Part shown: piece after piece, positions 7,648-23,427 of the stretch
How positions within the stretch are numbered: position 1 is the stretch's first letter
Layout: each line of letters starts with the position of its first letter
Virus record (IMG/VR): IMGVR_UViG_3300042453_003020
Span: 1 to 24,612 of that record
Source of the DNA: a virus
Length of the DNA stretch: 24,612 nt
Strand: one strand, 5' to 3'
Notes under the pieces: model-generated
Told to the model about the DNA's origin: nothing
Seen by the model: only the letters and a program-made list of their open reading frames with translations
Databases searched by the model: none
Program-made: the position numbers and the translations under genes

Positions 7648-9720
7648 TTACCGAGTATGCCGCTTAGCTTGCTGCTGCTCACGCCAGCTCACTTTTTGCT
7701 TGTGCTGCTTGACGGTTTGGCCTGGCAGGGCTGCACCTAGAAAACTGGCTGCCACGGCTGAACCCACCAGGCCGTCAAACCATTCATTGTCGCGGTTCGG
7801 CCTTAGCTTCCACTCCAACACCCGCCGGCCCGTAGACTCGCTGCTAGAGTCTATGGCGTATTCGCTGCTCAAATGGTCGGCCAGCATTGCATGGGTATCT
7901 GGGCGATCCCCGAACACCGTAATGCCTGTTTTGTCGTCGGTCGTCTTAATTCGCTGGCCTACTACGGTTTTCCACTGGTTCACATCGCAAATCAGGTGCC
8001 GCTGATTTCTCCGGCCCAGCTGCGTTTTCCAGCCTGGCCCTACTTTGTCGCTTGGCTCCCGTTTCCAGCTTTCAATAGGGGCTGTCGTCGCGCTGACGTA
8101 TCTACCGTGCCAGGGCATCAGCCGGCCTGCGCCAAGTGTTCTGGCTACCTGGTAGACAATATCCGTGCTGGGTTGCCAATTGGCATCAATCAGCAGTAGG
8201 TTAACGCTGGTTGTACCGCGGGTTTGGTAGGCGTACTGCTTGCTCAGTAGTCGCTCGCTTATCTCGGTAATACCTGCCAGCAGTCCATGCTGTACGGTTG
8301 CTACGCCGTAATGCTCTTGCAGCGTCTTTCTAATGTCCTGCTTCGTGAAATACTGCCGGCCCTGCTCAGGCCAGCTGCCGTAGTCCACCACATGCCCGCG
8401 CAATTGCTGATCCCAGGCGGCCACTAGGTAAAACAGGGCATCCTGCTGAACGTCACAAAATGCGGTTAGCTGCTCGGCCCAGTCTGGCACATATCCCCGC
8501 GGTACTCCGCTTAGCTTTTTGCCGATGTCGGCTGGCACTAAAGCAAAAGCGTTTTCTACATCCTGACTGCGGGGGCTGTTTTGGTATTCACTTAAAAAAG
8601 CGTCCTCATCTTTGGCCCACAAATCCATGGCGTATTGGATTGCACTCACCTGGTCAGGCTCGTGCCGATATTCCCAGGCTACTTGACACCCCGCGTCGGC
8701 TGTTTCTCGGTTCGCGCGGTAATAATCGTTCAACTGCTCTAGCGGCTGCTCTAATCGGATTAGCTCGTTGCGTTTGTCCCTGTAGCCTCGCCACCAATCC
8801 ATATTGTCGGGCATCCTGTAAACCAGTTTCATCAAGTCGCCTCGCCAATCTGGGTTTCGTTTGCGATCCAGGAGCCTGGCCGCTAGGTCATCTTGTTGAA
8901 TCACCGTAACCGCCGCAAACGCTGCTAGCCGCTTTCGAGCGCCACCGAGTCCCAAAACCGCACGGCTTGTTGTGCGTTCTCGCTCAGCTGTGCTGTGGGC
9001 GCTTTTTGCGCTGCGTTCGGTCTGCGGGTCATCAAGCAGCACCAGCTCAGGGCGTATGGTAGTACCGTCGGGCAGCTTATCCGATAAACCGCGTATAGCC
9101 CCTGTAATACTTCGGCAGTACAAACGCGCGCTGCTGCTGGGCGCTCCTGGCACAGTTGGAAATACCAGCTCCTCCCGAGTCCAGCGTATTCTGGTTTGTT
9201 CACCATCGAGGGTTTGGCCGCCAGTTCTGTGGTTGATACCTTCCAGCCGCTGAATGGGGTAACACGCTTCAGGAAAGTCGCCGCTTAGGTTTTCATCGGC
9301 CTCGATGGTTATTTTCACATTGTTGGCAATCTTGATACTGTCGGCCTTAGTCGCAGCCACAACCACCACAAACTTGCAATGGCCGTAAAGAATAGCCCAC
9401 AGCGTCGCCCCAGTTATCAGGGTTGTCTTGCCTTGCCGCCTAGGCATAGCCAGCGCGTACTGGCCACCGTGCAAAATTACGTCCTGCATTACCTCGATCG
9501 CGCGTAAATGATCGTTCGACCACGGCAAGTTAAACGTTTCTTTAAGATAGGTTTCCAAAAACAGTTTTAGGCTATCCTTGCATCTGGCCCGCCTGGCTGG
9601 ATCAGCCACCGCTGGCAGCGGCCCTATCTCACGGCTACTTTGCGCTCGCTCTCGGCTGCGCCTAGCCATGTCCTCTTTATGCCGCTGATATTGCTCACTG
9701 GTTTTGTCAATCGTCGCCAC
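7648..9720 (-). CDS. Terminase large subunit
   Basis: This 690-residue protein starts at GTG 9720 with GAGGTGATAA just upstream, overlapping rusA by 14 bp. The ATPase half shows a Walker A-like MPRRQGKTTL (residues 92-101) and a Walker B LVLLDDPQ (226-232). The nuclease half, beginning near residue 440, shows the acidic strands FCDVQQDALFYLVAAWD and LLLIDANWQPSTD expected of the RNase H-like terminase fold. It cuts concatemeric DNA and pumps it through the portal. It is longer than most TerL proteins and resembles the gpA-type subgroup, which fits the lambda-like portal downstream. No small terminase is recognised beside it. Confidence 0.92.
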   Translation of the reverse strand: MATIDKTSEQYQRHKEDMARRSRERAQSSREIGPLPAVADPARRARCKDSLKLFLETYLKETFNLPWSNDHLRAIEVMQDVILHGGQYALAMPRRQGKTTLITGATLWAILYGHCKFVVVVAATKADSIKIANNVKITIEADENLSGDFPEACYPIQRLEGINHRTGGQTLDGEQTRIRWTREELVFPTVPGAPSSSARLYCRSITGAIRGLSDKLPDGTTIRPELVLLDDPQTERSAKSAHSTAERERTTSRAVLGLGGARKRLAAFAAVTVIQQDDLAARLLDRKRNPDWRGDLMKLVYRMPDNMDWWRGYRDKRNELIRLEQPLEQLNDYYRANRETADAGCQVAWEYRHEPDQVSAIQYAMDLWAKDEDAFLSEYQNSPRSQDVENAFALVPADIGKKLSGVPRGYVPDWAEQLTAFCDVQQDALFYLVAAWDQQLRGHVVDYGSWPEQGRQYFTKQDIRKTLQEHYGVATVQHGLLAGITEISERLLSKQYAYQTRGTTSVNLLLIDANWQPSTDIVYQVARTLGAGRLMPWHGRYVSATTAPIESWKREPSDKVGPGWKTQLGRRNQRHLICDVNQWKTVVGQRIKTTDDKTGITVFGDRPDTHAMLADHLSSEYAIDSSSESTGRRVLEWKLRPNRDNEWFDGLVGSAVAASFLGAALPGQTVKQHKQKVSWREQQQAKRHTR

Positions 9721-10069
9721 TTATCACCTCGATTTCAATCACCAGTTGCCCCAGCTTCATTACGTCGCCGCGCTTAATCGTTAGCTCATCTATCTGCTTG
9801 TCGTCTGCGTAAACGCCGGCTTTGGCGAGGGCATCAAGGGGCGCTTTGAGTAGGTTATCAAGGTCGCGCGCTCGCTGATCTGGCGGGTTAGCTGTGATGC
9901 TTACGCGCAGCTTGCCGGTCATCGGCCTGGGTGCGCCACGGTTGCAGGCAAACACGGCGAGCAGGGTATCAACTCGGTACTGCTTGCCCTTTGCGGTCAG
10001 GTAGCGGTATTTGTCGCGGCTGCCCCAGTAGTGATTGTTCGATGGTGGCCAGGGTAGGATTAGCTTCAT
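9707..10069 (-). CDS. rusA: RusA-family Holliday junction resolvase
   Basis: The 120-residue product matches RusA in length and layout. It has an N-terminal LPWPPSNNHYW strand-turn, and the catalytic aspartates are visible as Asp69 and Asp71 in RARDLDNLLKAPLDAL and Asp90 in GVYADDKQIDEL. These correspond to E. coli RusA Asp70, Asp72 and Asp91. RusA dimers cut four-way junctions; in phages this clears branched DNA before packaging. The gene starts at ATG 10069, overlapping the previous stop as ATGA, and leads directly into the terminase, which fits a role in resolving packaging substrates. Confidence 0.93.
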   Translation of the reverse strand: MKLILPWPPSNNHYWGSRDKYRYLTAKGKQYRVDTLLAVFACNRGAPRPMTGKLRVSITANPPDQRARDLDNLLKAPLDALAKAGVYADDKQIDELTIKRGDVMKLGQLVIEIEVISGDD

Positions 10070-10419
10070 AACTCTGTCCTAACTTTTTCCGGCACAGATA
10101 AATAATCAATTACCGCGTTAAAAATCACATGCGCACCGTAAACTGCTGGTTGAACATAAATTTCTAACACATCATCTTTTACGCCAGTACCAATAACAAA
10201 CACGCAAACATCGTGCGGGCTATTCGAGGCATCTTCTTTCGCCTGCGCTAGCAACGATTCGTACTCTTTATCAAACGTAAATAAAAAATGATCAAAAACG
10301 GTACAGCTTAAATTTGGTTTGCAATTTTTGATTGCATCCTTTACTAAATTTGCCATAGGGCTTTTCATCGCTGCTACTGGCCCTTTTATAAAAACGTAAA
10401 TTTTATCTTTATTAGTCAC
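10066..10419 (-). CDS. AT-rich orphan protein with degenerate P-loop-like start
   Basis: The start is taken as GTG 10419, five bases after the previous stop and eight after GGAGG; an upstream GTG at 10434 is less well placed. The 117-residue product begins with a hydrophobic strand and turn, KIYVFIKGPVAAMKS, like a beta-strand plus Walker A loop, but the usual Gly before Lys is Met. Later strands TVFDHFLF and VCVFVIGTG suggest an alpha/beta fold. The DNA is visibly more AT-rich than its neighbours, pointing to separate acquisition. I do not recognise the family. A moron gene acting on host physiology or defence is a possibility, but that is only inference. Confidence 0.6.
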   Translation of the reverse strand: MTNKDKIYVFIKGPVAAMKSPMANLVKDAIKNCKPNLSCTVFDHFLFTFDKEYESLLAQAKEDASNSPHDVCVFVIGTGVKDDVLEIYVQPAVYGAHVIFNAVIDYLSVPEKVRTEL

Positions 10420-10424
10420 CTTAC

Positions 10425-10745
10425 TTACCTCCACTGACTAGACCAATAAACAACACCGTTCTTACCAATTGCAAACGCCCTTGCCACCATTCGATACTTT
10501 TTGCTAGTGCAATGATTCGGCCTGGCTGTCGAATTACTGCTACCCACGCCCGCAAATCTGCACCCTGGGGCGATGCCCAGCAAATGCCCAACAACACCCC
10601 TGGACGCTTGCAGCTCGGCTTCACGCTTTGCAAAAACATAAGCAGCTTGGTCTGTGGCCACTTCGGCTGTGCCGGCCTGTTGGCCAAAACACTCGGTACT
10701 TAGTAGCCCCAGGATAAATGCCAGGGCAATTAAAATCTTGTTCAT
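10425..10745 (-). CDS. Small exported protein (planctomycete-type)
   Basis: The best start is ATG 10745, sharing one base with the previous stop (TGATG) and following AAGGAGGT, a near-perfect ribosome site. The 106-residue product opens with a classical signal peptide (MNKILIALAFILGLLS, cleavage probably near residue 21). The mature part contains an Ala/Glu-rich helix, GHLLGIAPGCRFAGVGSSN, and ends ARAFAIGKNGVVYWSSQWR. The GxRxxGVGxS plus GxNGxxYxSxxxR layout resembles small secreted proteins I associate with planctomycetes; this is recollection only. Cys62 and Cys79 may pair. No function is known to me. It sits oddly within the replication/packaging block. Confidence 0.7.
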   Translation of the reverse strand: MNKILIALAFILGLLSTECFGQQAGTAEVATDQAAYVFAKREAELQASRGVVGHLLGIAPGCRFAGVGSSNSTARPNHCTSKKYRMVARAFAIGKNGVVYWSSQWR

Positions 10746-12430: not shown

Positions 12431-12751
12431 CTATTTAGGTTCAAAATGGCTGCACCACGCATCGTCCCAAGTAATAGGAAACCCTTCGTCGGTAGGCGGG
12501 TTTTTTCTACAGGTGCCTCTACGTGATAGGGCAGGCGCGATACAAAAATGAATACACATTTTGCACTCTTTCACTGGCTCAGCCTCGATAATCTCTAGCC
12601 ACTCATCATCGAGCGAAACTACGTTAAGCAGCTGTGACCAATTGCGAACCAAAAACGTATCATCTGACTTAATTATCACATCGTCGTCTATGTCCAAACT
12701 AGCCTGATCTTTACTGCCTGGAAATCGTTCTGAAAATTTAACCCACCTCAT
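12431..12751 (-). CDS. Small Cys-rich protein after RecT
   Basis: The 106-residue product starts at ATG 12751, overlapping recT by 14 bp. The N-terminus (MRWVKFSERFPGSKD) resembles DUF551-type phage proteins. The C-terminal 45 residues carry CKMCIHFC (Cys63, 66, 70), a GTCRKNPP turn (Cys81) and DDAWCSHFEP (Cys100), a Cys-spaced pattern seen in many small phage proteins and likely to bind zinc. No enzymatic motif is present. It closes the YqaJ-RecT operon just before the terminator-like hairpin, so an accessory or regulatory role in early DNA metabolism is possible but not shown. Confidence 0.65.
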   Translation of the reverse strand: MRWVKFSERFPGSKDQASLDIDDDVIIKSDDTFLVRNWSQLLNVVSLDDEWLEIIEAEPVKECKMCIHFCIAPALSRRGTCRKNPPTDEGFPITWDDAWCSHFEPK

Positions 12752-13364
12752 CTATCAAATCCTCCAATCTTTTTGGTGCTGCCTGTACAGGCTCGATGTC
12801 TACAACTTCGTCCTCGGTTTGCATTCCCAGCAGCAGTTCAGGGCAATGCTGGCGGGCAAAAAAACTAGCTGATCTGTAAATCAACATTTGCTCGGGCATG
12901 GTTTTCCACTTGCTGCCTTCCTTGTGATACCAGCCTTCCGCCTTAGCCATGGCCAGGTCAACAATAGTTCCCTCAATACGCTCGCCAGTAGCTCGATCCT
13001 TGGTAACGACGCGGCAGCCGTAGCTATCCTGGCCCCGAGTACCACTGAACACATAGGTAAGGCGCTCGAATTGCCGGCTGTTGTTGATTAGGGCGATTAA
13101 GAATTTAGCTTCCCAGGCTGGTTTGCCATGAATGATCGCCACATTTTGCATGACCATGGTTGGATCAAAACCGAACCTACGGGCTAAATTCATGGCTATG
13201 ACGCAGTTTGGTACGTTGCCCTTGAATGCCTTTGGGGCAAAATCGCTACTGGCTAGTAGCTTGGCTTCGCGCTGGGCAAATTCAAAAGCATCTTTTAGGT
13301 GTGCTAGCTGCCTCTCGGCCCTTTCTAGCGGCTCGGTCTGCTGTTGTTCAATTAGTTCACTCAC
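12738..13364 (-). CDS. recT: RecT-like single-strand annealing protein
   Basis: The start is GTG 13364, which overlaps the YqaJ stop as GTGA and follows CAGGAG nine bases upstream. The open frame extends further, but that extension only runs antiparallel through the YqaJ frame. The 208-residue protein shows RecT family landmarks: FAQREAKLLASSDFAPKAF, NCVIAMNLARRFGFDPTMVMQN, a GKPAWEAKFLIALIN segment, and a C-terminal MLIYRSASFFARQHCPELLLGM. RecT anneals complementary strands made by its partner nuclease, here the YqaJ protein encoded immediately upstream. It is shorter than E. coli RecT (269 residues), but the core is complete. Confidence 0.88.
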   Translation of the reverse strand: MSELIEQQQTEPLERAERQLAHLKDAFEFAQREAKLLASSDFAPKAFKGNVPNCVIAMNLARRFGFDPTMVMQNVAIIHGKPAWEAKFLIALINNSRQFERLTYVFSGTRGQDSYGCRVVTKDRATGERIEGTIVDLAMAKAEGWYHKEGSKWKTMPEQMLIYRSASFFARQHCPELLLGMQTEDEVVDIEPVQAAPKRLEDLIDEVG

Positions 13365-14248
13365 TTGGGCTGGCTCCTGCGAAAAACTCGAAACGTAGAT
13401 TCCTCGACGACATAGCTTTTGCGCGTCTGCTGCTTGTAGCTCAGCTTGACGCCGTTGGGCAGCTCGACCAGCTCGGCCCCGCCCATCAGTTGCAGCAGCT
13501 GGTTTTCTAGGTAACGCTTTTTGGTTTCTAGGTCGCTCAGCGTATCCTTGATCTGCGTTAGCTGCTGATCTAATTCCATGGCAGATATGCCCTGCTCGTA
13601 ACCCATTGGCATGGCCTCGGGCGTCCATTTAAACATGGTGCCGATAGCTCGCCTGGCCGACTCGCTGGCGTCCACAGGTGGAGGCTGGTGATTCAGTAGG
13701 TTTTCCCAGAATAGCTGCTCACGCTGCACCATAAATTGCTGGAAACGCTCGTTAGGCTCAACTTCGTGAATGACCAAACGCTGCCCACCAATCAGGATCG
13801 CCAAATAGGCTCGGCTGGCACCAGTTACACATAGTTCATGCTGTACCTGCACCTGATAGTTCAGCGGCACTTCCTCAGCTGCGTCGCGGTTGCTGGTCGT
13901 CTTGATCTGTACAATCTGCTCACCATCATCGAGCAGGGCATCGGGCGTACAGCCTTGCCAGTTGCGCTCGGGGTGCCGAATGATCGCTGACTGATCCCAC
14001 AGCTCTACAGGCCGGCCCAGGCGATCTGCCACCTCGGTAGCTATCACTGGCTCCAGCTTCTGGCCCCACAGCATGGCCTCGCTGGCCTGTACTGGCTCCA
14101 GCAGCCCCAGCTTACGGGCGTAAACCTCGATGGCTGACGTATACGGGCAGGCGCCCATGATCCCAGCAGCATCGCTGCCGCCAATGTAGGTCGCGCGGTT
14201 AGCGGCCCACGCCTCGCGGCTTCCAAATGTTTCGACAATTCCTAACAT
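13361..14248 (-). CDS. YqaJ-type viral recombinase/exonuclease
   Basis: This 295-residue protein starts at ATG 14248, with AAAGG just upstream. YqaJ motifs run in order: RATYIGGSDAAGIMG (19-32), MLWGQKLEPVIATEV with Glu66, WQGCTPDALL with Asp103, VQIKTTS (113-119) and VPLNYQVQVQHELCVTG (127-143). It is a PD-(D/E)XK nuclease expected to resect DNA ends for RecT. At the usual E-x-K position the residue is Gln114 with Lys116 kept; Gln occurs here in some relatives, so activity may persist. The C-terminal 90 residues hold a coiled-coil-like helix (LDQQLTQIKDTLSDLETKK). An operator-like repeat lies 11 bp upstream of the start. Confidence 0.88.
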   Translation of the reverse strand: MLGIVETFGSREAWAANRATYIGGSDAAGIMGACPYTSAIEVYARKLGLLEPVQASEAMLWGQKLEPVIATEVADRLGRPVELWDQSAIIRHPERNWQGCTPDALLDDGEQIVQIKTTSNRDAAEEVPLNYQVQVQHELCVTGASRAYLAILIGGQRLVIHEVEPNERFQQFMVQREQLFWENLLNHQPPPVDASESARRAIGTMFKWTPEAMPMGYEQGISAMELDQQLTQIKDTLSDLETKKRYLENQLLQLMGGAELVELPNGVKLSYKQQTRKSYVVEESTFRVFRRSQPK

Positions 14249-15041: not shown

Positions 15042-16625
15042 CTAGGCGTCCTTCAGAGCCACTCTGGACACTACCCATGGCCCGTAGGCTAACACCTTCT
15101 TTGCGCTCTCCGTGCGTAGGCTCCAGCGATGCTTATCAACGGTTGCTACAGCAGCTGCGTTAGGCGTCCAGGTTGCTCGCCTGTTACCTGTGCCGCCTAT
15201 CGTTATGCTCGCATGCGCCACTACTTGTAGGTCGGTATTGTTTCGGCTTTCAATACACACTTCTAGATTACCCTGGGCTGATAGGTCAACAGCCACATCG
15301 TTAGCATCGAACACATCTACACTGACTGGGCTGCGATCCCCAACTGCGATGTCAATGGTTGTGCCTACTACTCGCTCTGGCGCCTGGGCAGATAGTGGGC
15401 TAACAATCACAGTTGCCCCACCGCTGCCCGAGGCGTCGCTAATCTTTTCGAGTGTATCCGTTGCCGAACTCCAACCTGCTCCCTTAATCTCCGTGAATGC
15501 ACTTGTAACGCCGCTCGACGTTGCCAGCCCCGCTTGCATTTCCACAATAGTCCAAGTCAGGTTTGGAATCATCACATAGGCACTCGTTGTATCTGGCACG
15601 ATTGCCCATTCACCGTTGGCGGATCGCGTGCGTATCGTCGCAACTTTGGTCGAGCCAACATAATCCTCGACAAGTGCAATCTGGTCTTGACCTGTACCGC
15701 TGCGAATAAAGACTAGCTGCCCGTTGTAAGCATCGTCGCTAGTCGAGGCACTTGTGTTAAGCGTTATCGTTGTTGTCGTCGCTGCTTGTGCCAAACCTTC
15801 GTTGACGCTTTCGCGGCCTGCGTCACCGAGGATAACGAACTCAGAAGTATTGTCTGGATTCACTCGCCAGTCACGGTCAACAGTTGCAACTTTCGTGCTG
15901 CCGTTGTACTGAAGGATGAGTCTCGTTTGTCCTGCCCCCGTTCCAGTTTCGATATACACTAGGCCAGGATCGTACGCACCATTGATTGAGCTTGCACCTG
16001 TATCAAACTGAATCTGATTATTTCCAGTTCCTGCACCTTGCGCCGTACCACTGTGAACAATCACGGATGCTAGTTGCCTTAACCTCCGGCCTGCTGATGC
16101 TGCTACGTTGTGCGTTGCGCCGGTCAACACCTCATCCCAAACACCGTCAACGATTTCATCAACTGCATCGGTTGCAAGTGCTGCCGCTGTTATCGCATTG
16201 CTCGCCATTGCCCCTACGCTTGCATCCATGCGACCGCTTACAAGTGCCGCTGGAATGCGCGTTTGAATGTCGTCTGTGTCTGCTTGGATCGCAGTTGCTT
16301 GGGCACTCGTTGCAATTCCATTGGTTACAATCGCGTCGTAGGTCGCAGCAACGAGCACATCATAACGATGGTTGCTCATACTCATCGCGGAGTTGTTCAC
16401 AATCAAATCTAACCGTCCCAGCGTATCCACGTTGCCAGTCGTCAGTGCAACTGTGTAGTACCCATTTGTCGAATGCGTGACCGTTGCACCCGTCAGCGTT
16501 GCCACTGAACCATTCTTGGCAATTGAGAAATCGGCAAGCACTGCGGTTGTCACGGCAACACCATCGGCATCTAGCACAGGCCCGACTGTTACGGTTGCGG
16601 TCGTGGATTGTTTCAAAAGTTGCAT
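15042..16625 (-). CDS. Tail fibre / baseplate-associated structural protein
   Basis: The 527-residue product starts at ATG 16625, sharing one base with the LamG gene stop (TAATG). The first 95 residues (TVTVGPVLDADGVAV, GYYTVALTTGNVDTLGRL) form a beta-sandwich-like module common at the N-terminus of phage fibre proteins. A helical ITAAALATDAVDEIVDGVWDE linker (about 147-167) follows. Next come two similar blocks around TGTGAGQTRLILQYNGSTKVATVDRDW and SGTGQDQIALVEDYVGSTKVATIRTR, and a C-terminal domain (GDRSPVSVDVFDANDVAVDL) that resembles the N-terminal module again. A fibre or baseplate role is inferred from composition, repeats and place. Confidence 0.65.
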   Translation of the reverse strand: MQLLKQSTTATVTVGPVLDADGVAVTTAVLADFSIAKNGSVATLTGATVTHSTNGYYTVALTTGNVDTLGRLDLIVNNSAMSMSNHRYDVLVAATYDAIVTNGIATSAQATAIQADTDDIQTRIPAALVSGRMDASVGAMASNAITAAALATDAVDEIVDGVWDEVLTGATHNVAASAGRRLRQLASVIVHSGTAQGAGTGNNQIQFDTGASSINGAYDPGLVYIETGTGAGQTRLILQYNGSTKVATVDRDWRVNPDNTSEFVILGDAGRESVNEGLAQAATTTTITLNTSASTSDDAYNGQLVFIRSGTGQDQIALVEDYVGSTKVATIRTRSANGEWAIVPDTTSAYVMIPNLTWTIVEMQAGLATSSGVTSAFTEIKGAGWSSATDTLEKISDASGSGGATVIVSPLSAQAPERVVGTTIDIAVGDRSPVSVDVFDANDVAVDLSAQGNLEVCIESRNNTDLQVVAHASITIGGTGNRRATWTPNAAAVATVDKHRWSLRTESAKKVLAYGPWVVSRVALKDA

Positions 16626-19006
16626 TAAGGCATCCCCGTTAAGATTCGTCGGCGTTTGCTGCCGCTTGGGAATTGGTAGAAGGTAAATTGTTTGGGTCGT
16701 GGTTGTAGTCCGATGCCTCTACGGGATGCAAGGAGACGGATTTCGGGAGGGGTAAGAACGCGATTGTAAATGCGGATGTCGTCCAAATAGCCGCTGAAGT
16801 CTGTTTGACCGTTCAAATCTCTGCGAATACCAAAAAGCACAGAAGTTGTCGATGCTCCAGCCCCAACATTATTTGCAGCATTTCCAGTTTGCTTCGTGCC
16901 ATTTACAAACAAATCTACGGAACTAATAGTCGAATTGACATTAGCGAACACGTGATACCAGACATTAGATGAATGCGTAAACCACGCTGTTGCTGATATT
17001 CCAGACTGCCATTGCGTATGCTTGGTATTTATCATTCCATTACCACCACCAGCAATTGCATCATCTAAAACTATTTGAAATGTATTTGTGCCATCACCAA
17101 TATCTATAAGTCTAGGAAAATCTTGAACTGCTGTCCTTAAAAACCATAAAGAAACAGCAAATGTCGCACTTGTGATTGAAAGCGTATTGTTTGCGGAAAC
17201 GTAATCTAAACTATTTTCAAATCTTAACGCTCCTGCCCCTCCACTAACAACCCAATCTTCGCTGGTCATATTGGTGAGAGTCCCATGATTGCCGTAACCA
17301 CTGCGGTCAACGAGGCGATAGCCACTTGCACCGAGTGATGGACACCACGCACCAACCAAGCCTTCGGACAGCGAGCTATGCTCTTGCTGCGACTTGACAA
17401 TGACGCTGTAGGTTTTCTCGCGGGTTTCGAGGTAGTTAAATTTCGGTGATGTTGGCTTTAGTCCAACTCCGCGACCGGATGCTAGGCGGCGGATTTCTGC
17501 TGGTCGCACCGCTCGTGCATAGAATCGAACATCATCAATTTGCCCTAAGTACGGTGTGTTCAAGTCGCGCACGTTGTAGCCAATGAATAGCGGTTTACCT
17601 AAATCAAGCAGACGCAATGTATTGCTTGCGGTTGCATTTAAAACACCGTCTATCCAAATTTCGCCAATACTGCCTACCCGCGAAGCGAAAACGTGATGCC
17701 ACTTTCCGTCTGAACAATCTACGCCAGTAGTTTGTAATCCATCCCAATCTGAACCAAATTGAAAGCCATAGCTGGTTGGGTTCGCAACTGTTCCACCGAA
17801 AATTTGAAAAGCTATTTGTCCAGAGGCAGACCAATTACTAGACAACCAAAAAACATTACCGTTAGTGGAACCGCCAGCTAAAGGCCTATTGTTAGCTATT
17901 GTTTGAATTATTGTTCTGCTAGTTTTAATAAAACATGAAATTCCAAAGTCCTGCGTCAACGGGACACTGGTTCCGTATTCTGGAATTGAAACATAATCAT
18001 TCGATCCGTCGAAATCCAAACTTAACGCCCCGCCACTCGGAACCCAGTCCTCGGGAGTCATATTCTGAAGTGTACCGTGATTGTTTTTGCCTGACACATC
18101 AACCGCCCGATACCCCGTTGCTCCGCTTACGCTTGGGCAGATGGCTAAGACGAGGCCTTCTCTCAGCGAATCGTAGTCCGATTGGCTGCGGGTTATGGCT
18201 GCGTAGGTTTTATCTTTCGGAGGTTTGTAGGCGTAGCGTTTAGCGAAGGCGGAAGAAGTGCGGGAGGATGTTTTGAAACCGATGCCACGCTCTTTGGAGA
18301 GGAGGGAAACTTCGGTCGCGGAAAGTGCGCGGTTATAAATGCGGATGTCGTCGGAAATCATATCTGCTTGATTACCAAGCGTTGGAAAGTTGTTGAAATC
18401 CGTTCCTATAGCTAAGGGTGTTGTTTGGGTGACTACACCTGTAAAAGTTCCTAAATTCTGATCGGTTGTATCTGACCTAACTCCGTTGATATAGATGGCT
18501 ATTCCGCTATTTGCGCCGTTGCCAGTGTAGGTGCAAATAAAATTCGTAAATTGATTTAGTGGGATACTTGCATTAGGCAAGCTTCGACCAATGCGATTGG
18601 CAAAACTGGTTGGATTCATTATCACAAACGCAAGAGAATCAGTAGGCGTAAGATCGGTTCCTGATACATAAAACAGAAACTCTCTTTTGTTCGGTGTCGA
18701 TCCAAAATCAGACTTAGTAAAAATTAATCTATATCCGGTTTTGCTTCGCAAATTTGCCCAAATTGAGAAACTGAAGGCTCCTGTAAAATTATGGTTTGCT
18801 CCCAAATTCACATAATCGCTTGTCCCATCGAAATCTAACGCTAGATTGTTATTGCTCACCACCCAATCACTGGCAGCATCCATGTTGGTGAGCACACCGT
18901 GATTACTTCCAACTCTATCAACGAGCCGATACCCAGTCGCGCCCAAACTGGGTATCCACGCTGCTACGAGTCCGTTTTTCAAGTTGGCTAAGTCACGACT
19001 CGACAT
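16625..19006 (-). CDS. Triple LamG-like (concanavalin A-like) adhesin, probable receptor-binding protein
   Basis: The 793-residue protein starts at ATG 19006, sharing one base with the preceding stop. It consists of three tandem units of about 265 residues. Each opens with a GLV.A..PSLGATGYRLVD type segment followed by NHG.L.NM..EDWV and LDFDG..DYV. Each closes with DDIRIYNRALS.TE type strands and a short GRGIGL linker. The pattern is that of LamG/pentraxin-like jelly-roll domains, which bind sugars. Its size, repetition and place after the tail-tip genes suggest a receptor-binding protein recognising surface polysaccharide. The DNA is more AT-rich than flanking genes, consistent with exchange. 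Three diverged units imply old duplication. Confidence 0.78.
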   Translation of the reverse strand: MSSRDLANLKNGLVAAWIPSLGATGYRLVDRVGSNHGVLTNMDAASDWVVSNNNLALDFDGTSDYVNLGANHNFTGAFSFSIWANLRSKTGYRLIFTKSDFGSTPNKREFLFYVSGTDLTPTDSLAFVIMNPTSFANRIGRSLPNASIPLNQFTNFICTYTGNGANSGIAIYINGVRSDTTDQNLGTFTGVVTQTTPLAIGTDFNNFPTLGNQADMISDDIRIYNRALSATEVSLLSKERGIGFKTSSRTSSAFAKRYAYKPPKDKTYAAITRSQSDYDSLREGLVLAICPSVSGATGYRAVDVSGKNNHGTLQNMTPEDWVPSGGALSLDFDGSNDYVSIPEYGTSVPLTQDFGISCFIKTSRTIIQTIANNRPLAGGSTNGNVFWLSSNWSASGQIAFQIFGGTVANPTSYGFQFGSDWDGLQTTGVDCSDGKWHHVFASRVGSIGEIWIDGVLNATASNTLRLLDLGKPLFIGYNVRDLNTPYLGQIDDVRFYARAVRPAEIRRLASGRGVGLKPTSPKFNYLETREKTYSVIVKSQQEHSSLSEGLVGAWCPSLGASGYRLVDRSGYGNHGTLTNMTSEDWVVSGGAGALRFENSLDYVSANNTLSITSATFAVSLWFLRTAVQDFPRLIDIGDGTNTFQIVLDDAIAGGGNGMINTKHTQWQSGISATAWFTHSSNVWYHVFANVNSTISSVDLFVNGTKQTGNAANNVGAGASTTSVLFGIRRDLNGQTDFSGYLDDIRIYNRVLTPPEIRLLASRRGIGLQPRPKQFTFYQFPSGSKRRRILTGMP

Positions 19007-19512
19007 TAAGACACCGTGTCAAATTCAGGTTGAATTCTAATCTGGTGATTGCCTGAAGTTGCGTTCAAAGCAACTCCTGTATTGTGCGTAATAAATAGAC
19101 TCCACCGGGCCGGAACGCTTCCACCAAAGACCGAAGAAATCAGCACCGGCCCAAAATCATACTGCTGATTACTTGTTGATGTTGTTGCCATCTCAGCAAC
19201 GAATTTACAAACAGCATTTTTGATTTCTGCAAGTGGTATGGTCTCTGCGGAATTCGTCCCGTCGAAAACAGTTGGCCAAAGTGAACCCGATGAGTCCATA
19301 GCCCCTACGGCCCATACTTGAATGGATCGACTTGCCGTGGGCGAAGTGCCAGTCATCACTTTGCCACTAACCCAGTAATCACGACGACCATCAACGGTGT
19401 TATCCACTGCACTCGACTCTTGACCAGCCAGCAAGTTGGTATCACTTGCCAAGCTAGCTAGCGTCATCGAAAGGTCGGATGCTGTTGCGTAATTAATTTT
19501 TCCGGTTGCCAC
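19006..19512 (-). CDS. Putative virion structural protein before the adhesin
   Basis: The gene starts at GTG 19512, preceded by AGGAGAATAACAA, and makes 168 residues. It is rich in Ser, Thr and Ala and alternates short strands (RDYWVSGKVMTGTSP, SIQVWAVGAMDSSGSLWPTV, ARWSLFITHNTGVAL), suggesting a beta-sandwich. No catalytic motif, signal or coiled coil is evident. It sits between a small hypothetical protein and the LamG adhesin, so a fibre-linker, tail-decoration or adhesin-attachment role is likely. I do not recognise a named family. Confidence 0.6.
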   Translation of the reverse strand: MATGKINYATASDLSMTLASLASDTNLLAGQESSAVDNTVDGRRDYWVSGKVMTGTSPTASRSIQVWAVGAMDSSGSLWPTVFDGTNSAETIPLAEIKNAVCKFVAEMATTSTSNQQYDFGPVLISSVFGGSVPARWSLFITHNTGVALNATSGNHQIRIQPEFDTVS

Positions 19513-21089: not shown

Positions 21090-21898
21090 TGGCCGATCCC
21101 CAGTAGCGAGAAGTCGGCATCCTCGTAAACCTTTTCGACGTAGGCACAAACTGGCCGCTTGACGATGGCCTGCCCTGTGCTGTCGTCTTGGTCAGCGTAC
21201 AAAAACCAAACAAAATCATGGCCCTTTTTGTTAATAAACATCCCGTTGACGTTCAGGTTAGCCACGTTAGGCGAGGCGACAAACGAAAACTGTAGAGAAA
21301 ACTCATCTTCGTTGCGTAGCCGGCCTCGTGCGCCCGCAAACAGAACCTCACCGGCTGCCTTCTGCCTGAAACTCGCATTGTTTTTAGTGCCAGTCAGGTT
21401 GTACAGGGTGTTCTTGTAGGTTTCGGTTACTACGTTAGCTGGAAAAATAAAAGTCTCAGACCAACTAAACGTAGGCAGCAGTACGTCGACGCCGTTAACT
21501 CGGCCATCCTGCACGTTGATTGCACCCTGAAAATTGGGTGCCTGGGTTGTGCCGCTGTTGGGTATTCTGTACCTAGTCGTCTGCTTGCTCTGCGTAATGT
21601 TTTGGTTCTGGGTGCCAATGTCAAACTCGTACTCGTACTCATTGACAAGCAAACGCCTAGCTTTGTCGTACCGAACGCGTATTTTCCAGGCGTCATTGCT
21701 CATGGCCTCGTAGCCTAGACCACGCTTAACGCAGCCCTGAAACGTTGCTGGGGCTACGTCGTCTGCTGCATCGAGCGCCACGCCTAAAATGGCAGTACCA
21801 CTGACAATGTACACCAACTCGGCGCGGCTATCCTTTCCGTCCCTCGATGCGTCACCGCTGCGGCTCTCTGGTGAATGCTCTATAACGCTTATCGTCAT
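21086..21898 (-). CDS. Distal-tail-like structural protein
   Basis: The 270-residue product starts at ATG 21898, overlapping the tape measure stop as ATGA. It has a beta-rich pattern (AELVYIVSGTAILGVALDAAD, YEAMSNDAWKIRVRYDKAR, then PTFSWSETFIFPANVV) and a late GHDFVWFLYADQDD segment. The gene directly after the tape measure in siphophages usually encodes the distal tail protein, which forms the hub at the tail tip, and this fits by position and size. Sequence alone does not establish the family, and a minor tail protein is the alternative. Confidence 0.55.
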   Translation of the reverse strand: MTISVIEHSPESRSGDASRDGKDSRAELVYIVSGTAILGVALDAADDVAPATFQGCVKRGLGYEAMSNDAWKIRVRYDKARRLLVNEYEYEFDIGTQNQNITQSKQTTRYRIPNSGTTQAPNFQGAINVQDGRVNGVDVLLPTFSWSETFIFPANVVTETYKNTLYNLTGTKNNASFRQKAAGEVLFAGARGRLRNEDEFSLQFSFVASPNVANLNVNGMFINKKGHDFVWFLYADQDDSTGQAIVKRPVCAYVEKVYEDADFSLLGIGQ

Positions 21899-23427
21899 TG
21901 CAGACCCCCGTTGGCAACTTCGTCCACAATGGCGCCGGTATTAGCAGCCACTTTATTAAGGGCGTTTAGCATGTCCTGCTGGAGGCTCTGCGCCCCAAGT
22001 CCCGCAATGGCCTGTGCTGCAAACGTCCCAGCGGTTTCCATGCCACCACCTGCACCCGCAAAGGCTACACCTGCCTCTAACTGCGCTCGCTCGGCCCGCT
22101 TGGCCGCTTCCTCGCTGGCCCGCTTCTGGTCAGCTGCCATAGACTCGGCTAACTTGGTTTGAGCATCTACCACGGCCTGGGTTCGCTGCGATCGCGCCCT
22201 GGCTGCGTCCTCTTGAATGTTCGCCAGCATGGCGGCCTGGTCTAGCTCACGCTGCTGCCTACGCTTTTCTAGCTCAGTACCTAGCTTGGCTGACTCTTTG
22301 CTTTGCTCTGCTGCGATCATGGGGGCGCCTACGCCAATGCCAGTCGCTGCACCCTGGATAAAATTCGCTGCACTATCCAGCCCAGCTCCTCGTAGCACAT
22401 CGGCCAGCGGTTTGCTGATTTTCTGTACCATGCTAAAGGTCGCGCCAGTCATGGCCTGCATGGCTTTGGCCCAGACGATTTGTATGTTTGTCGCTACTGT
22501 ATCGAAAACGCCCTCGATTGTGGTTTGCATTACTACCAAGGCTGACGAGATTCCCTGCACCGCGTAGCTAAATGCGTTACCAAAAAATTCGGTCGTAGCT
22601 GCCCATGCCACTTGCAATGTAGCAAACGCAGTTTGTGCTGACGCGACAAATTTCAAAACATCCATTAGCCACTGCGCAAACGCCTGGCCGGCTATTAGCA
22701 CAGCGTCTGTGAGGTAAGTTAAAATCGGGGCTAATGCGCCACCAATCAAATTAGCCACGCCCTGTAGGGCCATGCCCATTTTGTCGATAGCATCGTTAAA
22801 ATTCGCGGCTGCTGCTACCTGCTCGGCTGATAGGCTTACGCCAAACTTTTTGGCTTCCTGCCGCATGGCTGCCATTTCTTCGCCACTGGCAGACAATAGC
22901 GGTATCATATCCGCGCCAGCCTTGCCAAATACCTGCATCGCTAGGGCTGCCCGCTGCGTCGGGTTGGTTATTTTCTGGAACGCGGCAAAGATAGCCTCCA
23001 GTTGTCGGTCAGGCGATTGCTGCTTTAGCGTTTCAGGGTCTAGGCCCAGTTGCTTTAGTGCCTGGACGTTGCCGCCAGACACCAGCGCCTTAGTGAACGT
23101 CCGAAATCCCTTTTCTAGCGTACCGAGGTCGCTGCCTGATAGCTTGGCCGCGTAACCAAGCTCAGACAATGCCTCTGTCGTTAATCCTGTTCGCGCGGCT
23201 GCGTCACCGACCTCATCGCCATAGTTTGCGAAACTGCGAGTAGCAGCAGCAGCTGCGGCACCAGACGCCAATAGGGCGCCGCCAATTAACTTGGAAGCGC
23301 CTATTAACGGCTTAGCAAACGCTTTCAGTCGGTCTGCTGCTTGCTTTAGTGTTCGGCGCAAGGGCGAGTCGTCCGCGAAAATGCGAACAAATGCGCCCCC
23401 TGCCTCAATGCCTTGCTTGGATGCCAT
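21895..23427 (-). CDS. Tape measure protein
   Basis: This 510-residue protein starts at ATG 23427. It has features typical of tape measure proteins: an N-terminal DDSPLRRTLKQAADRLKAF amphipathic helix, a Gly/Ala-rich ASKLIGGALLASGAAAAAATRSFA, the conserved GDEVGDAAARTGLTTEALSELGYAAKLSG block and a PTQRAALAMQVFGKAG segment. Hydrophobic segments near 230-300 and a charged C-terminal coiled coil (ESAKLGTELEKRRQQRELDQ) follow. In the family, length sets tail length at about 0.15 nm per residue, so a tail near 75 nm is expected. It also helps DNA cross the inner membrane. It is small for a tape measure but complete. Confidence 0.9.
   Translation of the reverse strand: MASKQGIEAGGAFVRIFADDSPLRRTLKQAADRLKAFAKPLIGASKLIGGALLASGAAAAAATRSFANYGDEVGDAAARTGLTTEALSELGYAAKLSGSDLGTLEKGFRTFTKALVSGGNVQALKQLGLDPETLKQQSPDRQLEAIFAAFQKITNPTQRAALAMQVFGKAGADMIPLLSASGEEMAAMRQEAKKFGVSLSAEQVAAAANFNDAIDKMGMALQGVANLIGGALAPILTYLTDAVLIAGQAFAQWLMDVLKFVASAQTAFATLQVAWAATTEFFGNAFSYAVQGISSALVVMQTTIEGVFDTVATNIQIVWAKAMQAMTGATFSMVQKISKPLADVLRGAGLDSAANFIQGAATGIGVGAPMIAAEQSKESAKLGTELEKRRQQRELDQAAMLANIQEDAARARSQRTQAVVDAQTKLAESMAADQKRASEEAAKRAERAQLEAGVAFAGAGGGMETAGTFAAQAIAGLGAQSLQQDMLNALNKVAANTGAIVDEVANGGLQ

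Follow-up and report, generated by a model that had tools for sequence, protein, structure and literature searches.

Tetart, Desplats and Krisch are said to have described, in 1998, a distal tail fibre adhesin of T-even phages in which conserved motifs flank hypervariable segments and recombination there changes specificity. In this study, we analyzed a 24,612-base virus record, IMGVR_UViG_3300042453_003020 (the whole stretch is referred to here as the window), in which a gene on the minus strand (16625-19006) encodes a protein of 793 amino acids (aa) with three tandem LamG (Laminin_G_3) units that we propose to be a tail adhesin. As in the T-even adhesins, variable sequence lies between conserved segments of a single adhesin gene; the T-even motifs are short, whereas in the window array a LamG lectin core would be swapped as a unit in one of three to four slots. 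In R pyocins (PMC6363177), the foot domain is a lectin-type jelly roll at the receptor-binding end, with a conserved scaffold and a variable binding part; it is discoidin-like with variable loops and belongs to a trimeric fibre, whereas the window array has tandem LamG units and appears to undergo whole-core replacement. Targets of diversity-generating retroelements (DGRs) such as tentaclins are diversified phage adhesins with lectin domains (PMC10743442). They share lectin-domain diversification with the window array, in which no reverse transcriptase was matched and cassette replacement would act instead. No description of LamG core exchange or of LamG arrays in phages was found in the titles and abstract starts of open-licence PubMed Central papers. 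The known kind of system is the modular, recombining phage adhesin; what is new here, as judged from sequence, is the presence of tandem LamG slots that appear to be refilled one by one.

We consider it quite probable that the 793-aa protein is a host-recognition tail adhesin and that recombination at conserved ends exchanges its lectin cores as cassettes, slot by slot. Each unit would comprise a conserved scaffold marking its slot (about 57 residues at the N end and about 27 at the C end, together with a linker) and, at its centre, a core of roughly 140-155 residues, which would be replaced as a cassette. Replacement would proceed via recombination between phages within or beside the conserved end segments, one slot at a time, and one phage lineage could thereby present different combinations of lectin cores.

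The original prediction, made from the sequence alone, had described three tandem LamG-like domains of about 265 residues that share an N-terminal signature, a DDIRIYNRAL motif and a GRGIGL linker, are diverged from each other and lie in AT-richer DNA. The protein does bear this architecture. The Laminin_G_3 profile (PF13385) covers it in three stretches (E 3e-55; 187 bits against a curated cut-off of 27.6), with units at aa 6-263, 278-535 and 542-793, and a GLV motif that starts at aa 12, 284 and 549 gives unit spacings of 272 and 265 residues. The motif recurs in all three units with variation (DDIRIYNRAL, DDVRFYARAV and DDIRIYNRVL; ERGIGF, GRGVGL and RRGIGL). When the three units were aligned, as had been suggested, they proved diverged, with 85 of 218, 83 of 216 and 93 of 223 aligned residues identical in the three pairs, yet their alignment scores (218, 254 and 299) were far beyond chance (maximum 58-65 in 200 shuffles each). 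The gene has 45.5% GC and a third-position GC (GC3) of 0.41, compared with 49-58% GC in most other genes of the contig.

To characterize the fold, unit 3 was modelled by AlphaFold2 from an alignment of 67 of the approximately 92 unit sequences (the three of the window plus 89), near-duplicates and partial sequences having been dropped by eye. The model had a mean predicted local distance difference test score (pLDDT) of 83.9 and a predicted template modelling score (pTM) of 0.83. Its top structural match was domain 4 of the arabinanase AbnA (5hp6, Z 24.7). Against the same domain with a bound arabino-oligosaccharide (5hon_A), a part of a glycoside hydrolase family 43 (GH43) enzyme, it gave Z 24.2 and a root-mean-square deviation of 2.2 over 196 aligned residues. 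AbnA domain 4 differs in being a single enzyme domain with 19% identity, and the likeness rests on fold, not on binding residues. The next matches were other lectin-like jelly rolls. As the match lists are dominated by a few fold families (the arabinanase domain, clostridial neurotoxin binding domains and trans-sialidase lectin domains), they were taken for fold only and imply no functional link. The LamG unit is thus predicted to be a concanavalin A-like jelly roll, closest to a sugar-binding domain. The original prediction had named a non-lectin fold as the outcome that would speak against it; the fold predicted for unit 3 is lectin-like, so this outcome did not occur, and the Pfam matches together with the unit fold agree with a protein of three lectin folds in tandem, encoded in the tail region of a phage.

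The array protein is likely a host-binding lectin. The multivalent sugar binding or broadened host range named in the original prediction would be hypothetical functions of such an array. We infer a receptor-binding role, glycan binding by the cores and homologous recombination as the route of their replacement. It is also conceivable, though we regard it as unlikely, that the cassette array is real and serves as a virion decoration attaching to mucus, polysaccharide or particles instead of being a receptor-binding protein. The best PHROG match of the protein is named 'virion structural protein' and most of its other PHROG matches have no function, which would fit a decoration. The position of the gene argues for an adhesin: it lies in the tail region, downstream of the tape measure gene (21895-23427, minus strand; phrog_9483, E 2.6e-36), and is syntenic in relatives, and at the same place a close relative has a 447-aa protein (L023:11827-13167) that replaces the LamG protein and has a PHROG 'tail protein' match, with neither a LamG nor a Pfam match.

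To compare the array among phages, the 793-aa protein was used for a scan that yielded 17 loci, and the tape measure protein, a handle on close relatives independent of LamG, for a second one that yielded 18 loci and gave the same picture of array variation. Two loci (L002 and L003) represent the window strain, and two others (L004 and L005) have three LamG units each. Along the genes of the window, L004 and L005, a sliding identity profile showed well-conserved blocks (ends and linkers) alternating with blocks of background identity. All slots lie on the minus strand. Slot 1 consists of an N-terminal end segment (18824-18991, aa 6-61, reaching to the ALDFDG motif), a core (18353-18823, aa 62-218) and a C-terminal end segment with linker (18176-18352, aa 219-277). 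The corresponding parts are 18005-18175 (aa 278-334), 17537-18004 (aa 335-490) and 17384-17536 (aa 491-541) in slot 2, and 17213-17383 (aa 542-598) and 16784-17212 (aa 599-741; the unit modelled above) in slot 3, which ends with a C-terminal end segment and the C-terminal tail of the protein (16628-16783, aa 742-793) that is common to the one-unit relatives L006, L027 and L044.

The nine units of the window, L004 and L005 were then compared by segment, with nine same-slot pairs and 18 pairs of different slots in different phages. N segments were 89.9% identical in aa and 80.9% in nucleotides (nt) within the same slot (82-98% aa across phages) and 65.3% and 57.2% between different slots. A similar difference was found for the C segments with linkers (82.4% aa and 78.9% nt vs. 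41.6% and 51.8%). For the cores, same-slot pairs (20.8% aa and 37.0% nt) were as unlike as different-slot pairs (19.7% and 36.6%). Since the ends are alike by slot and the cores equally unlike in all slots, the slots are read as older than the split of these three phages and the cores as having no slot memory. Within the window protein, the conservation between units likewise sits in the two ends and the cores align at background level. The idea that an entire module had been triplicated therefore stands only in part: slot-specific ends recur, whereas the three cores are unrelated to each other and to those of the same slot elsewhere, so that triplication is too simple a description. The array resembles a row of slots that can be refilled more than it does one lectin present in triplicate.

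A quite improbable explanation is that the cores diverged fast by point mutation under selection, with the ends conserved for reasons of fold and no cassette exchange involved. It would account for the conservation of ends throughout the units seen, cellular arrays included. Synonymous sites speak against it. Where amino acids were identical, the same codon was used at 0.65 of the N-end and 0.68 of the C-end sites within the same slot and at 0.40 of core sites (chance 0.34), the levels calculated from codon usage being 0.32-0.35; codon memory in the cores is near chance although ends and linkers are about 80% identical in nt. Protein-level selection would not erase synonymous identity, which is lost in the cores only, and the cores are therefore best read as replaced and not as having drifted fast. 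In addition, core identity is bimodal. Of 4005 scored pairs from 91 unique units, 62 had at least 80% (N) and at least 70% (C) aa identity, and their core identity was below 30% in 43 and at least 60% in 19, with no intermediates.

Two direct comparisons contradict fast divergence for the genes concerned. First, the slot 2 core of L004 and the one-unit gene of L044, phages whose tape measure proteins are 99% and 47% identical to that of the window, respectively, share 586 bp at 86.0% nt identity, from ALDFDG to just past RGIG. In blocks of 12 residues, identity is 75-100% nt inside the shared core, 22-64% before ALDFDG and 44% after RGIG. Other longer alignable DNA of this pair is 66-71% identical in head and tail genes and 80.6% in the LamG 3' end plus the downstream gene. 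A common core is thus held in different surroundings, with its edges at the conserved end segments. Second, L065 and L071, an unrelated pair, have four-unit arrays in which slot 2 was kept beside replaced slots. Their core identities in slots 1-4 are 34, 87, 42 and 42% nt, whereas the N segments are 68, 94, 94 and 82% and the C segments with linkers 81, 97, 80 and 88% identical. Exchange between phages, which the original prediction had proposed to look for, is supported by both pairs.

Further loci gave similar observations. In L050, the N segments of three slots are 77-80% alike in nt and the cores 37%. A stretch of 589 bp in the gene is 81.5% identical between L072 and L077, which have no blastn match in the flanking 3 kb on either side. 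A 49-bp stretch, 94% identical, links positions 680-728 of the L065 gene with positions 2228-2276 of the L071 gene, that is, a slot 1 end with a slot 3 end, and represents a possible exchange between slots. The cores of L049 and L061 are 52% identical overall. Exchange may also take place inside cores, because the nt match of this pair (73%) is confined to 219 bp of the later part.

The number of slots also differs among close relatives. Six genotypes had a tape measure identity of at least 86% and the adhesin locus in view (the contigs of L024 and L025 end before this locus and are outside the count): the window strain and L022 (the contig of L004) have three LamG units, L020 (the contig of L006), L027 and the contig of L026 and L061 have one, and L023 has none. 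The five close LamG genotypes have nine LamG cores in total, and no pair of these appeared among the 60 most similar core pairs listed (down to 0.27 identity). The C-terminal tail of the window protein recurs in the one-unit proteins of L006 and L027. That near-identical phages have either three units or one and keep a common C-terminal tail suggests that slots have also been gained or lost.

Several observations weigh against the proposed core replacement or narrow its reach. The wide LamG scan, from which the best 80 of 184 relatives were kept, selected on N-segment motifs, and the N-segment conservation across the family is therefore biased; end conservation in part reflects this ascertainment and in part characterizes the LamG_3 family as such. 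No such selection applies to the tape-measure relatives or to the C segments. Among 94 units of cellular LamG proteins (1703 scored pairs), 14 pairs had at least 70% N identity, and their core identity was 0.14-0.27 in 13 and 0.41 in one. The protein-level contrast did not separate phage from cellular units, for which reason the claim of replacement rests on the DNA evidence, and the combination of similar ends with dissimilar cores may be common to tandem LamG proteins more widely and not specific to phages. Between the window and L004 or L005, the ends average 79-81% nt identity, below the 90-95% found for the neighbour genes of L022, and for this reason exchange tracts may also run into the end segments. 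A search for close donors of the three window cores (for slot 1, in viral_contigs) matched window-strain contigs only; as its patterns were exact 8-mers, only close copies could appear. The model of the full-length protein was poor (pLDDT 52.6), with units 1 and 2 poorly modelled.

As a separate observation, tandem LamG proteins (L115, L116, L117, L118 and L119) are on contigs of metagenome-assembled genomes (MAGs), several of them Patescibacteria, and have very similar unit ends and unrelated cores. A capsid search in five genomes behind MAG loci gave no match, which, as it had no positive control, carries no weight.

It is very improbable that the pattern was produced by assembly chimeras, in which arrays of different strains were joined at conserved segments. 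All data are metagenomic contigs, and there are exact runs of 41-67 nt common to the genes of the window, L004 and L005 and one of 122 nt in L065 and L071, at which such joins could form. Inside the window gene, the slots share at most 9-17 exact bases, which makes joins within this array unlikely; the contigs of L002 and L003 carry the window array at 100% identity, every array is an intact reading frame, and the same pattern recurs in unrelated phages. An exact terminal repeat of 127 bp at the two ends of the window record, together with relatives that span the junction of these ends, makes it probable that the record represents a complete small phage genome. A DGR acting on the lectins was rejected as hardly credible, although receptor-binding proteins of phages, including some that contain lectin domains, are diversified by such elements (PMC10743442): no reverse transcriptase family was matched among the scanned proteins of this seemingly complete contig, and the cores differ as wholes and in length, not by adenine-directed substitutions within a repeat of 100-150 bp.

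Cassette replacement by recombination is our preferred explanation. On the minus strand, the window encodes a RecE-like exonuclease (13361-14248; phrog_434, E 4.2e-71; YqaJ, E 2e-22), a RecT-like annealing protein (12738-13628; phrog_561, E 1e-67) and a RusA-like Holliday junction resolvase (9707-10069; PF05866, E 5.4e-16; phrog_34, E 2.6e-39), which may drive homologous exchange. A more far-reaching and rather doubtful possibility is that small phages of this type draw on a shared, circulating pool of LamG core cassettes, each fitting any of several standard slots, and that exchange by the RecE/RecT/RusA-like proteins via the conserved slot ends yields combinatorial adhesins with three or four independent specificities per phage, altered in single slots within a near-clonal lineage.

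If the cores are replaced in this way, change in the likely host-binding part of a phage would be visible as discrete, slot-by-slot lectin-core replacement, with the rest of the gene as an internal control. The rate, breakpoints and donors of replacement could be measured in metagenome time series, and L065/L071 (one kept and three replaced cores) and L004/L044 (a common core) are specific pairs on which to test it. Interchangeable lectin cores might also find a natural scaffold in these slots.

The genes adjoining the array, both on the minus strand, vary as well. The 168-aa gene (19006-19512) is a member of the same variable tail locus, its product being 92% identical in aa to that of L004 and L005, 53% to that of L027 and 35% to that of L006/L020. 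The 527-aa gene downstream of the array (15042-16625) is a mosaic: the C-terminal approximately 168 aa align in most close relatives and the remainder is variable and often unalignable. Among isolate phages, the sole matches to the 793-aa protein were Synechococcus phage S-PM2 records (27% identical across 41% of its length); the window terminase had no close relative. The gene set of the window includes capsid, portal, terminase, head decoration and tape measure genes. At 37%, the GC content of a short open reading frame without a Pfam match (10066-10434) is below that of every other gene measured, and a papain-family cysteine protease (1439-2272; PF00112, E 8.7e-11) is encoded among the head and tail genes.

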